The notes beneath the pieces are model-generated. The model worked only from the letters and a program-made list of their open reading frames with translations. It did no database searches and had not been told where the DNA came from. A stretch of DNA of 45,932 nucleotides from Vicinamibacterales bacterium (GTDB taxonomy: Bacteria; Acidobacteriota; Vicinamibacteria; Vicinamibacterales; Fen-181): assembly GCA_036504215.1 (NCBI GenBank), contig DASXVO010000022.1, forward strand, positions 1-45,932. The letters run 5' to 3'. Shown here piece after piece: positions 20,914-25,386 of this stretch. How positions within the stretch are numbered: position 1 is the first letter of the stretch; every line of letters starts with the position of its first letter. The position numbers and the translations under genes are program-made.

Positions 20914-21399
20914 TCAGCCGGCCCGCTGCAGTACCGCCCTGAGCGCCCGTCGAGCCTCGGCTTCCGGGGAGGATTCGTCCTCATCCACGCGGACCACGGG
21001 CAGTAGGGGAGCCTTGAAACGACACTCGGCTCGCGGCAGCTTCACGCGCTCCTCGGCGAGACGAACGCGCGCCCGGAACTCCTGCAAATGGAGCGGCTTG
21101 AACAGCAGGTCGGTCGCGCCGCACGCCAGCACGTCCTCGAGCGAATACTGCGAGGAGTAGCCGGTCATGAGGATCGCCGTGAGGTCGGGCTGCAGCTTCG
21201 TGGCCGCGCTGACCAGGCGGAATCCGTCCGGCGGCGGCATCACGATGTCGGTGACGAGGATGTCCGCGGGATGGGCTGACAGATACTGCAGGGCTTCGTG
21301 GGAACAGATAAACGTCTCGACCGAGTGGCGGTCGGCCGCACAGGCGGCGGCCAGCAGATCCAGAATCACCGGTTCGTCGTCCACCAGCACGAGATGCAT
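20914..21399 (-). CDS. Single-domain response regulator
   Basis: A 161-residue protein on the minus strand. The ATG at 21399 has GGAGGG 7 bases upstream. The receiver has MHLVLVDDEPVILDLL (acid pocket), ILVTDIVMPPPDGF (phosphoacceptor aspartate), ILMTGYS (threonine) and LLFKPLH (lysine), so it should be phosphorylated normally. The last 40 residues are charged and have no DNA-binding or output domain. It diverges from the HD-GYP regulator and shares a symmetric pair of sigma-28-like promoters with it. It is likely a CheY-like or phosphorelay shuttle protein made with late flagellar genes; its partner kinase could be the one at 22661. Confidence 0.88.
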   Translation of the reverse strand: MHLVLVDDEPVILDLLAAACAADRHSVETFICSHEALQYLSAHPADILVTDIVMPPPDGFRLVSAATKLQPDLTAILMTGYSSQYSLEDVLACGATDLLFKPLHLQEFRARVRLAEERVKLPRAECRFKAPLLPVVRVDEDESSPEAEARRALRAVLQRAG

Positions 21400-21434
21400 G
21401 TCGTCGCCCTCCGGCGGCCTAGTACCTATCTCCG

Positions 21435-21461
21435 TAATCGGCGGGAGCGGGTTGAAGTTTA
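21435..21461 (-). promoter_or_regulatory. Sigma-28 (FliA)-like promoter, leftward
   Basis: Read on the minus strand the site is TAAACTTC, 11 bases, GCCGATTA. It matches 6 of 8 and 7 of 8 positions of the FliA consensus TAAAGTTT-N11-GCCGATAA. The predicted start of transcription is about 30 bases before the response-regulator ATG at 21399, leaving room for its GGAGGG site. The -35 box overlaps that of the rightward promoter. Confidence 0.65.
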
Positions 21462-21479
21462 GGGGAGGATTGCCGATTA
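21453..21479 (+). promoter_or_regulatory. Sigma-28 (FliA)-like promoter, rightward
   Basis: TGAAGTTT, 11 bases, GCCGATTA matches 7 of 8 and 7 of 8 positions of the FliA consensus and is the best match in the window. It would drive the HD-GYP gene at 21578 and the kinase at 22661 with a leader of about 90 bases. Confidence 0.75.
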
Positions 21480-21536
21480 TCACGGTGACGTACCAGGCAA
21501 CCGCCTCGTACGACCGGATAACCTCCTCGCGGGCAT

Positions 21537-21548
21537 CAAGACGTCTTG
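21537..21548. promoter_or_regulatory. Perfect 12-base palindrome in the HD-GYP leader
   Basis: CAAGACGTCTTG is a perfect palindrome lying 29 bases before the ATG of the HD-GYP gene and about 50 bases downstream of the predicted transcription start. It may be an operator for a dimeric regulator or a small RNA hairpin. One such 12-mer by chance is not rare enough to be decisive. Confidence 0.3.
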
Positions 21549-21577
21549 TGGTCCGCCGGCCAAGGTGCGAGGGATAG

Positions 21578-22612
21578 ATGGGTGCGCACATCCTGGTGGT
21601 TGATGACGAAGCCTCCATTCGGGACCTGTTCAGTGAGTGGCTTCGGGTGGCCGGTCATACGTGTGTCAGTGCGGGAAATGCCGCGGAGGCCTTGTCGGTG
21701 GCCGAGCGCGAGAAGACCGACGTCGCGCTCTTGGATCTGCGGATGCCTGGAGAGAGTGGCGTCTGGCTGGCCAGGCGCCTGCGCGAGTCCCGGGACGATC
21801 TTGCGATCATCATGGCCACCGGCGCGCAGAGCTTCGACGCCGCCGTCGAGGGCATGCGTCTTGGCGTGCTCGACTACCTCCTGAAGCCGTTCTCGCGGCA
21901 GGAACTGGTGGACGCGGTCAACCGGGCGGTCCAGTGGTGCGAGGCCACGGCGCGGGAGCGGGCCGAACGAGAGCGGCTCGAGCGGGAAATCGAACGTCGG
22001 AGCGCGGAACTGTCCGAGGCGTTCGCCGAGGTGGAACTCACGACCGCCGGCGCCCTCGAGGCCCTGCTCGCGGCCTTCAACATGCGGAACCCGGACGCCT
22101 TCGCGCACGCCAAGCGAGTGGCCGAATCGGCGGTCGTGCTGGCCCAGTCGATGGGCGTCAGCGCGTCTCTGCTCGCCGACATCGAGCGGGGCGCGATGCT
22201 GCACGACATCGGAAAAGTCGCGATGCCCGATTCGCTCATTCACAAGGCCGGCGCGCTGAGCGAAGAAGAAGTCGGCATCATCCGAACCCATCCCAAGGTC
22301 GGCCACGACATCCTCATGTCCGTGCCATTTCTGCGAACAGCGGCTGGGATCGTCCTGGCCTCACATGAGTGGCTGAACGGCACCGGGTATCCCGACGGGT
22401 TGAAAGGGGATCAGATTCCACTCGGGGCCCGAATCACGTCGGTTGCCGATGCGTTCGACGCGTTGACGTGCTCGCGCGTGTACCGCGATCCCGTCTCGGT
22501 CGAACGGGCGAACGCTGAACTGGCGCAATTCTCGGGGAGGCAGTTCGATCCGAACGTGGTTCGCGCATGGCTTCGGCTCTCCGAACGGCGTACGGCCACG
22601 GAACGGAACTGA
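21578..22612 (+). CDS. Response regulator with HD-GYP domain (cyclic-di-GMP phosphodiesterase)
   Basis: A 344-residue protein. The receiver (1-120) has ILVVDDEASIRDLF, VALLDLRMPGESG with the phosphoacceptor, IIMATGA and YLLKPFS. A charged coiled linker (about 120-160, RERAERERLEREIERRSAEL) joins it to an HD-GYP domain (about 170-335). That domain has MLHDIGKVAMPDSLIHK with the HD pair at about 209-210, RTHPKVGHDIL, ASHEWLNGTGYPDGL with the GYP triad, and ARITSVADAFDALT. The full set of metal and substrate motifs suggests an active enzyme that lowers cyclic-di-GMP, favouring motility. It is preceded by the best sigma-28-like promoter and probably cotranscribed with the kinase 48 bases downstream. 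Confidence 0.92.
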   Translation: MGAHILVVDDEASIRDLFSEWLRVAGHTCVSAGNAAEALSVAEREKTDVALLDLRMPGESGVWLARRLRESRDDLAIIMATGAQSFDAAVEGMRLGVLDYLLKPFSRQELVDAVNRAVQWCEATARERAERERLEREIERRSAELSEAFAEVELTTAGALEALLAAFNMRNPDAFAHAKRVAESAVVLAQSMGVSASLLADIERGAMLHDIGKVAMPDSLIHKAGALSEEEVGIIRTHPKVGHDILMSVPFLRTAAGIVLASHEWLNGTGYPDGLKGDQIPLGARITSVADAFDALTCSRVYRDPVSVERANAELAQFSGRQFDPNVVRAWLRLSERRTATERN

Positions 22613-22660: not shown

Positions 22661-25303
22661 ATGAATCTCGAGGCGGTTGCGTCGCTTGGCATCAGGCTCA
22701 GTCAGTTGTCGGACCGGAAGGAAGCCGGCCGGGCAGCGAGCCTGGGTCTGACCGAAGCCTTCGAGGCCGACGCGGCCGTGGTGTGGCTGCCGCCCGATTC
22801 CGGTCCGTGCCGGGCTGAAGACGTCTTCGCCTCCGGCTCCGTGGTTCCCGACGGTGCGGCCCGCGAGCTTGCCAGGGTTCTGCGTGACGGTGGCCTCGAA
22901 CGCTGGTTTGCAGCGCGGGGCGCCGCTGTCTCCACCGCGGCGGCCATCGGCGCCGCCGGCACCCCATTCGGTCTGCTGGCCGTGGGGTGGCAGCGATCTC
23001 CCTTCAACAGCTCGCGGATCGAGGTCTTCCTTGCGCTCGTCGCCGAGCAACTGCGGAGCGTCCTCGCCCGCGAACAGCTCGTCTGCCAGGCGGCAGCCGG
23101 CACCGGTGACCCCGAACAGCATCCCCTCGTCCGAACCCTGCGCCGTGACATCACAGTCCTTCAGCAGGAGCTCACCCGCAGCCAGCGCGCGATTCCGGAG
23201 GACGGCTCCACCACCACCAGGCAGCGCACCATCATCGAGTCCACCAGCGACTACGTGTTCGTGAAGGACATCTGGGGCCGCTACGTGGACGTGAACGCCG
23301 CTTACCTCGCGGCGCTCGGCGTCTCGGCGGCGGACGTGCTCGGAAAGCGCGACGGCGATCTGTTCCCGCCCGAGCTTGCCGACGAACACACGGCGCGGGA
23401 GCACATTGCCCAGATCTCGGGTCAGACGCTCGAGGACGAGACGACGTGGACGCTCGGCAAACGGCATCGGCACCTGCTCGTGCGCCGGTCGCCGTGGCGC
23501 AACGCCGAGGGCCATACCGTCGGCGTGGTGACGGTAGCGACCGATATCACCGAGCGGAAGGAGGCGGAGGTCCAGCGCCAGACCGCGCTCGACGCGCTTC
23601 GCACGGCGAACGAGCGAATGCAGCAGCTGCTGGCCGAGCAGATGCGGCTGAGCCAGAGGGGCAGTGCGCTGCTCGAGCTGACGCGTCGGCTCACGCTCGA
23701 ATCGGACGCCGAGTCCATCTACCGTGTCGTCGTCGAGACGGCCGAGCAGCAGCTCCAGGACGCGTGCGCGCTGATTGCCAACTGCGATCCGGGCGGTCCG
23801 ACGTTTGCCGTTCGCTGCTCGGGCGGCCGGGCCCTCACTCTCAGGCACGCGTCGGGCCTGAAGCACGGCGTCGAGGCGAGCTTCGGCGGGGAGGTCATGG
23901 GTGAGCGGGGCACGACGTCGGTCCTGCTCGATCCCGGGTATCGCTTCGATGCAGCGTTGATCGAGGACGGCCTGCGGGCGGCCACGGTTCTGCCGATCGT
24001 CGCCGCCGGCCGACCTCAACCGGTGCTGGTGATTGGCTGGCCCGACGCCAGGCAGTGTTCGCCCGAGGACCTCTGGTTCCTCGAGAACCTTGCCGTTCAG
24101 CTGGGGCTCGCCGTCAAGAATGCCCGACTGTACTCGGATCTTCGGCAGTCGCTACTCTCGTTGCGGGACGCGCAGCAGGAGCTGTCGCGGGGACAGCGGG
24201 TCCGTGCGCTCGGCGATCTGGCATCGGGGATCGCTCACAAGTTCAACAACTCGCTGACGTCGATTCTGGGTCTCACCGACTGGCTGCTGTTCACGCTCCC
24301 CGAGGACGCCGCCGGGCGCCAGGAGATGAGCAGCATCCGGGCCTCAGCGACCGAGGCTGCTGGTCTGGTCAAGCGTCTGCACGACTTCGGGCGCGTGGCG
24401 CCGGGTGGCGAGAGCGCGGGGCCGACCGACCCCGTGGACGCGATGCGGCACATGCCGGACCTCCTCAGGACACGGCTCGACGAGGAGGCACGGCGACGAG
24501 GCGTGCGCCACGACCTGGTGATGGACCTGAACCAGGTGCCACTCGTTCGCATCGTCCCGTCGGAACTGCGCGAGGTGCTGCTGTGCCTGGTGTCGAATGC
24601 GATCGATGCGATGCCGGCCGGCGGACAGATTACCCTCCGGTCCGTCGAGTCGGAAGGCCGCGTCCGGCTCTCGGTCCTGGATGAGGGCGACGGCGTCGCT
24701 CCGGAGATTCTGCCGCATTTGTTCGAGCCGTTCTTCAGCACGAAGGGCGGCGAGCACGTCGGGCTCGGCCTGAGTGTGAGCCGAAGCGTGGTCGAACGCT
24801 ACGGCGGGTCGATCGCCGTGCAAAGCCGGCCGGGCAGCGGCACCACTTTCACTCTCAGTCTGCCCGTGCCGGTTGACGTGCCCACCCGGGCGACGCCGAT
24901 CGTGCAACCCCAGGACCAGAACGCCGTGCGACGCGAACAACTGCGGGTGCTGCTCGTGGACGACCAGCACGATGTACTCGAGGCGGTGTCGGAGATGGTG
25001 TCCGCGCTGGGCCATCGGGTGGAGACGGCAACCAGCGGGGCGCTGGCGCTCGACGCGCTCGGCCGTGAGGAATACGACGTCGTGCTCACCGACCTCGGCA
25101 TGCCGGATCTCGACGGACGCGAGCTCGCGAGGCAGGCGATGACGCGGCACCCGGGGCTTCGCGTCATCCTGATCACCGGGTGGACCGCGGACCTCGAGCA
25201 GACACCGCCGCAGGGTGTCTCGCGCGTGCTGACCAAGCCGTTGACCATCAAGACCCTGCGCGCGGCGCTGGCGCTCGACGGCGCCGGCGTCGCCCTCGCC
25301 TGA
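22661..25303 (+). CDS. Hybrid histidine kinase (GAF-PAS-GAF-kinase-receiver)
   Basis: An 880-residue soluble protein. A GAF-like region (about 10-145) is followed by a PAS domain (about 190-305, IIESTSDYVFVKDIWGRYVDVNAAYL, ending TDITERKEAE). A second GAF-like region (about 335-490), the phosphorylation helix, an ATPase domain (about 615-735; VSNAIDAMPAGG, DEGDGVAPEI, GLGLSVSR) and a C-terminal receiver (about 765-875; LLVDDQHDV, VVLTDLGMPDLDG, LITGW, VLTKPL) come next. The phosphoacceptor helix reads GIAHKFNNSLTSILG: H526 is followed by lysine where the family has aspartate or glutamate. The receiver looks competent. It probably signals to the HD-GYP regulator or the divergent single-domain regulator, by position. 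Confidence 0.88.
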   Translation: MNLEAVASLGIRLSQLSDRKEAGRAASLGLTEAFEADAAVVWLPPDSGPCRAEDVFASGSVVPDGAARELARVLRDGGLERWFAARGAAVSTAAAIGAAGTPFGLLAVGWQRSPFNSSRIEVFLALVAEQLRSVLAREQLVCQAAAGTGDPEQHPLVRTLRRDITVLQQELTRSQRAIPEDGSTTTRQRTIIESTSDYVFVKDIWGRYVDVNAAYLAALGVSAADVLGKRDGDLFPPELADEHTAREHIAQISGQTLEDETTWTLGKRHRHLLVRRSPWRNAEGHTVGVVTVATDITERKEAEVQRQTALDALRTANERMQQLLAEQMRLSQRGSALLELTRRLTLESDAESIYRVVVETAEQQLQDACALIANCDPGGPTFAVRCSGGRALTLRHASGLKHGVEASFGGEVMGERGTTSVLLDPGYRFDAALIEDGLRAATVLPIVAAGRPQPVLVIGWPDARQCSPEDLWFLENLAVQLGLAVKNARLYSDLRQSLLSLRDAQQELSRGQRVRALGDLASGIAHKFNNSLTSILGLTDWLLFTLPEDAAGRQEMSSIRASATEAAGLVKRLHDFGRVAPGGESAGPTDPVDAMRHMPDLLRTRLDEEARRRGVRHDLVMDLNQVPLVRIVPSELREVLLCLVSNAIDAMPAGGQITLRSVESEGRVRLSVLDEGDGVAPEILPHLFEPFFSTKGGEHVGLGLSVSRSVVERYGGSIAVQSRPGSGTTFTLSLPVPVDVPTRATPIVQPQDQNAVRREQLRVLLVDDQHDVLEAVSEMVSALGHRVETATSGALALDALGREEYDVVLTDLGMPDLDGRELARQAMTRHPGLRVILITGWTADLEQTPPQGVSRVLTKPLTIKTLRAALALDGAGVALA

Positions 25304-25359: not shown

Positions 25360-25386
25360 TCAAGTTCCGGCCCGGCCTGACGATTT
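25360..25386 (+). promoter_or_regulatory. Sigma-28 (FliA)-like promoter of the second stator operon
   Basis: TCAAGTTC, 11 bases, GACGATTT matches 6 of 8 and 5 of 8 positions of the FliA consensus with exact spacing, and keeps the CGAT core. The same boxes recur before cheA. It lies in the 167-base gap before motA, giving a leader of about 80 bases. Confidence 0.55.

Follow-up and report, generated by a model that had tools for sequence, protein, structure and literature searches.

A predicted two-way sigma-28 promoter with a common -35 box between a receiver gene and an HD-GYP gene of a Vicinamibacterales bacterium

Introduction

The 45-base stretch at positions 21435-21479 of the window, the whole stretch of DNA that was analyzed (45,932 nucleotides), contains two predicted sigma-28 promoters that point in opposite directions and have the -35 box in common. 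This layout raises the question whether both directions are functional FliA promoters, and whether the overlap makes the element a switch between the two genes that it faces, as suggested in the original prediction. The features on which the analysis is based are the following.

20914..21399, minus strand: stand-alone receiver-domain response regulator, 161 aa (Pfam Response_reg, 3.7e-19)
21400-21577: intergenic region of 178 bp between the divergent receiver and RR-HD-GYP genes
21435..21461, minus strand: predicted sigma-28 promoter of the receiver gene, TAAACTTC-N11-GCCGATTA, 3 mismatches of 16 (-35 box TAAACTTC at 21454-21461, -10 box GCCGATTA at 21435-21442, expected start at ~21428)
21453..21461, no strand: dyad TGAAGTTTA of the common -35 region, with its axis on base 21457
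21453..21479, plus strand: predicted sigma-28 promoter of the HD-GYP gene, TGAAGTTT-N11-GCCGATTA, 2 mismatches of 16 (-35 box TGAAGTTT at 21453-21460, -10 box GCCGATTA at 21472-21479, expected start at ~21486)
21578..22612, plus strand: response regulator with an HD-GYP domain, 344 aa (Pfam HD_5, 2.3e-38; Response_reg, 7.8e-26)
22661..25303, plus strand: PAS/GAF hybrid histidine kinase with a receiver domain, 48 bp downstream of the HD-GYP gene

Results

The window represents a motility and chemotaxis cluster in which MotA, two MotB-like proteins and an Hpt protein were identified with Pfam, while CheA and CheW were named from their translations; a CheA-like gene adjoins motAB in relatives too. 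The ATG of the receiver gene at 21399 is preceded by GGAGGG, and this start is supported by a relative of the protein in genome G005. The residues D7, D8, D51, T79, and K101 are all present in the receiver protein. On the other side of the intergenic region, the translated gene contains both the HD and the GYP motif, making its product a probable cyclic-di-GMP phosphodiesterase, and the kinase gene that follows is probably co-transcribed with it. No sigma-70-like promoter was detected by a consensus scan between 20.8 and 28.3 kb, a result that carries little weight in a GC-rich genome.

Two further observations concern the surroundings. A weaker sigma-28-like site, TCAAGTTC-N11-GACGATTT, is located on the plus strand at 25360-25386, ~84 bases upstream of motA, and in G005 a better site, TCAAGTTT-N11-GCCGATTC, precedes motA by ~275 bases, so that motAB probably has a FliA promoter of its own. 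The idea that the plus promoter at 21453..21479 is an old motAB promoter was dropped, since motA has its own site. Between 14910 and 20867, with the two mot loci on either side, lies a run of glycosyltransferase-like genes, which possibly serves flagellin glycosylation.

The geometry of the element agrees with the original prediction: its positions, the spacing of 11 bases, and the identity of the two -10 boxes (GCCGATTA) are as given there, and so is the overlap of 7 bases, by which the -35 boxes have seven of their eight bases in common. The predicted starts of the two directions are ~58 bp apart and imply leaders of ~30 bases on the receiver side and ~92 bases on the HD-GYP side, the -10 box of the minus promoter being located 35 bases upstream of the receiver start. 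The "exact dyad symmetry" ascribed to the element holds for the placement of the boxes and for the -10 boxes (8/8), but not for the -35 half (3/4) or the spacers (aggggaggatt in the plus and aacccgctccc in the minus promoter; 0/10), giving 11 matches in 22 arm pairs. Since the spacers do not match at any position, the element consists of two symmetrically placed promoters, and an origin by inverted duplication is ruled out. The G at position 5 of the -35 box is absent from the minus promoter and present in the other good sites of this genome.

To compare the two sites with chance, we scanned for the pattern TAAAGTTT-N11-GCCGATAA, allowing up to 3 mismatches of 16. The only matches in the 45.9-kb window were these two sites, one on each strand and both with a spacing of 11, and 100 shuffles of the window gave none. 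In the 5.9-Mb genome, 10 sites were found, compared with 5 for a reversed control pattern; therefore, most 3-mismatch sites elsewhere in the genome may be due to chance. A 6-Mb first-order Markov sequence gave 1 site. When the 178-bp intergenic region was simulated with Markov models, a site of the quality of the minus promoter appeared in 1 and one of the quality of the plus promoter in 0 of 2000 sequences. Two such sites in this arrangement are not a product of chance.

FliA is encoded in the same genome (G000:C5:17719-18384) and scores 232 bits against TIGR02479, where the cut-off is 189.6. Similar promoters are found upstream of flgM (TAAAGCTT-N12-GCCGATTT), whose product passes its family cut-off, upstream of a cheY-like receiver gene (TCAAGTTT-N11-GCCGATTG), and upstream of two further genes, one encoding an HEQAHAA-motif protein and the other a lipoprotein-like product. 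Because the genome encodes FliA and these genes have similar promoters, both sites at 21435-21479 are probably real FliA promoters. The expectation of a divergent FliA-type pair between a receiver gene and an RR-HD-GYP gene is thus borne out by the sites, the Pfam domains of the two products, and the above-cut-off FliA. Of all sigma-28-type sites in the genome, the closest to consensus (TAAAGTTT-N11-GCCGATTA, 1 mismatch) is located ~42 bases upstream of the gene of the HEQAHAA-motif protein (L031:1569-2273, on G000:C16), which has 234 aa and matches none of the NCBIfam families.

The original prediction had looked to related genomes for conservation of the 45-base element. With up to 2 mismatches allowed, the 45-bp dyad was found in its own genome only among 162 genomes of the order, and no relative with the same receiver/HD-GYP gene pair was found among the genomes searched. 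A clear relative of the receiver was found only in G005, a FliA-bearing member of the same family but of another genus (69% over the first 126 aa, 62% over the full alignment); the four genus mates searched contain no close relative. Upstream of the G005 receiver gene, CTAAACTT is followed after 12 bases by ACCGAATA. Since an equally good site appears in 109 of 2000 Markov sequences, this one is only suggestive of a retained receiver-side promoter, which would be weak at most. The divergent neighbor of the G005 receiver gene is a different response regulator, and no plus-type promoter was found on its side. The homologues of the HD-GYP protein in relatives (~40-46%) are non-syntenic.

An exact but looser dyad pattern was then searched for in 84,980 species genomes and returned 14 stretches, 10 of which lie within a long open frame. 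Two are located at likely flagellar or chemotaxis promoters, neither of them between divergent genes: in Dechloromonas (L047:5474-5518), a flgK-like gene, itself preceded by a flgJ-like gene, begins 27 bases downstream of the dyad, and in Pseudomonas segetis (L052:6162-6206), a chemoreceptor gene begins 31 bases downstream of it, all genes being named from translations. In both cases, transcription in the second direction would enter the upstream gene in antisense orientation. By a rough estimate, about this number could arise by coincidence among many sigma-28 promoters, and the 14 stretches are therefore no evidence of a widespread class. Among 396 genomes of the phylum, matches to the dyad with 3 mismatches were common and chance-like. 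Pairs of exact -10 boxes at spacings from 14 to 44 showed no clear peak at 29 across the phylum, and the other pairs at spacing 29 had no -35 box. Since the dyad occurs in its own genome only within the order and has few matches in the 84,980 genomes, the arrangement is rare and looks independent in origin.

Discussion

We consider it likely that the element works as a bidirectional promoter for sigma-28 (FliA), with both directions functional. On the opposite strand, the -35 consensus TAAAGTTT becomes AAACTTTA, and after a shift by one base 6 of the 7 overlapping positions agree. Because the consensus is nearly palindromic (AAA-N-TTT), a single -35 box can serve both strands. Directionality would then be set by the location of the -10 box, and with a GCCGATTA box 11 bases off on each side, both directions would be usable. 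Once FliA is freed late in flagellar assembly, the receiver gene and the operon of the HD-GYP and kinase genes would be co-induced, with the split of initiations depending on how strongly each side is recognized. With the axis on base 21457, only the plus strand obtains the consensus G at position 5 of the -35 box, and for this reason the HD-GYP direction is probably the stronger one. The activity of both directions, their co-induction and this bias are inferred; against a two-way promoter speak the lack of conservation of the pair in relatives and the absence of the -35 G5 from the minus promoter.

A less probable explanation is that the plus promoter alone is functional, its minus counterpart being a by-product of the near-palindromic -35 box and a chance or decaying GCCGATTA, with the receiver gene expressed weakly or from elsewhere. 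Any strong sigma-28 -35 box automatically gives a 6/7 match on the opposite strand, the minus site has 3 mismatches and lacks G5, and one-sided cases do exist, namely the Dechloromonas flgK and P. segetis chemoreceptor promoters with their antisense second direction. However, chance is unlikely to have placed a perfect 8-base GCCGATTA at the correct distance from the -35 box and 35 bases upstream of the receiver start; moreover, CTAAACTT recurs upstream of the G005 relative, and no other promoter for the receiver gene was seen in the sigma-70-like scan from 20.8 to 28.3 kb. These points argue for a working receiver direction. That the symmetric boxes are instead the operator of a dimeric DNA-binding protein, and not promoters at all, is very improbable. 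Although the outer arms of 8 bases form a perfect inverted repeat, they correspond to -10 boxes of the sigma-28 consensus, each strand has a -35 box at the distance typical of sigma-28, and an element found a single time in the genome and among the 162 genomes of the order is unlike the site family of a regulator.

A different matter is what a two-way promoter would do with its overlap. With seven of the eight -35 bases belonging to both promoters, binding must be exclusive: FliA-polymerase bound one way would shut out the other way, and the original prediction was right that two RNA polymerases could not occupy the element together. Steric competition could then set a fixed ratio, or an activator could tip a receiver/phosphodiesterase switch, both of which are compatible with the two-way promoter. 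In Escherichia coli, activation of flgBP2 lowered the opening of flgAP2, which the authors suggest may reflect competition (PMC12781870). Exclusion matters only with enough occupancy, though, and the basal activity of five bidirectional sigma-70 promoters of E. coli was insufficient for either direction to influence its counterpart, so that competition set in only once one direction was strengthened or activated (PMC12825309). In addition, no operator or regulator is known for the element, and the arrangement was not found to be conserved. We regard competition or switching as doubtful. A fixed ratio is possible in principle, but the specific scheme of a near-consensus, balanced two-way promoter whose -35 exclusion ties receiver and phosphodiesterase output together appears equally doubtful. 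The element as a switch, which the original prediction had named beside a fixed ratio, is unsupported, as both directions use the same sigma factor and the basal activity of the E. coli promoters is too low for competition. The bidirectional FliA promoter remains our preferred reading, and if competition is without effect here, the element is merely a compact divergent promoter.

The near-palindromic sigma-28 -35 box suggests that a flagellar promoter could become two-way by gaining just a second -10 box, comparable to the symmetry of the -10 element in sigma-70 promoters. With both sides near consensus, the example in the window is cleaner than the one in E. coli and would be a handy template for testing polymerase competition with an alternative sigma factor.

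Comparison with known systems

The original prediction knew of no described pair of this kind, a statement that is superseded by flgAP2/flgBP2 of E. coli, divergent sigma-28 promoters with one -35 element in common (PMC12781870, NAR 2026); our literature search found no other sigma-28 pair with a common -35 element besides this one. In vitro, flgAP2 and flgBP2 each gave the expected RNA with sigma-28 polymerase only when their own -10 element was intact. Opening of flgBP2 was incomplete without MarA, and activation by MarA lowered the opening of flgAP2, an effect that the authors tentatively attributed to polymerase competition (PMC12781870). In our own reading of the E. coli K-12 sequence (NC_000913), the two promoters are best matched by CCCATTTT-N11-GCCGATAA and, on the opposite strand, AAAATGGG-N11-GCCGTTGA; together they form an element of 46 bp with 4 and 7 mismatches. 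By our own count, flgBP2 requires MarA despite a better consensus fit than flgAP2; match counts are thus a poor guide to which direction works.

Bidirectional sigma-70 promoters (Warman et al., 2021, cited in PMC10268837; PMC12825309) are also near-symmetric elements that are bound exclusively in either way. It is normally their -10 element that is common, with starts ~18 bp apart, whereas in the window the sigma-28 -35 box is common and the predicted starts are ~58 bp apart. The predicted sites in Dechloromonas and P. segetis share the 45-bp geometry with the element in the window, one at a flagellar and the other at a chemotaxis promoter; their second direction is antisense, while that of the window faces a divergent gene.

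The closest likeness is to the E. coli flgA/flgB region, where divergent sigma-28 promoters with a common -35 element are likewise found, in that case between two flagellar operons. The E. coli element has 46 bp and an even axis, and its two strands use the same 8 bp as their -35 box, whereas that of the window has 45 bp, an odd axis, and a 7-bp overlap, and its boxes fit the consensus better (2 and 3 mismatches versus 4 and 7). The E. coli region additionally contains sigma-70 promoters and sites for FlhDC and MarA, and its genes differ from those of the window. With a 7-base overlap, the element belongs to the divergent sigma-28 promoters of the flgA/flgB type, in which the -35 boxes coincide or overlap, and it is a clean second example of this layout rather than a new kind of switch.
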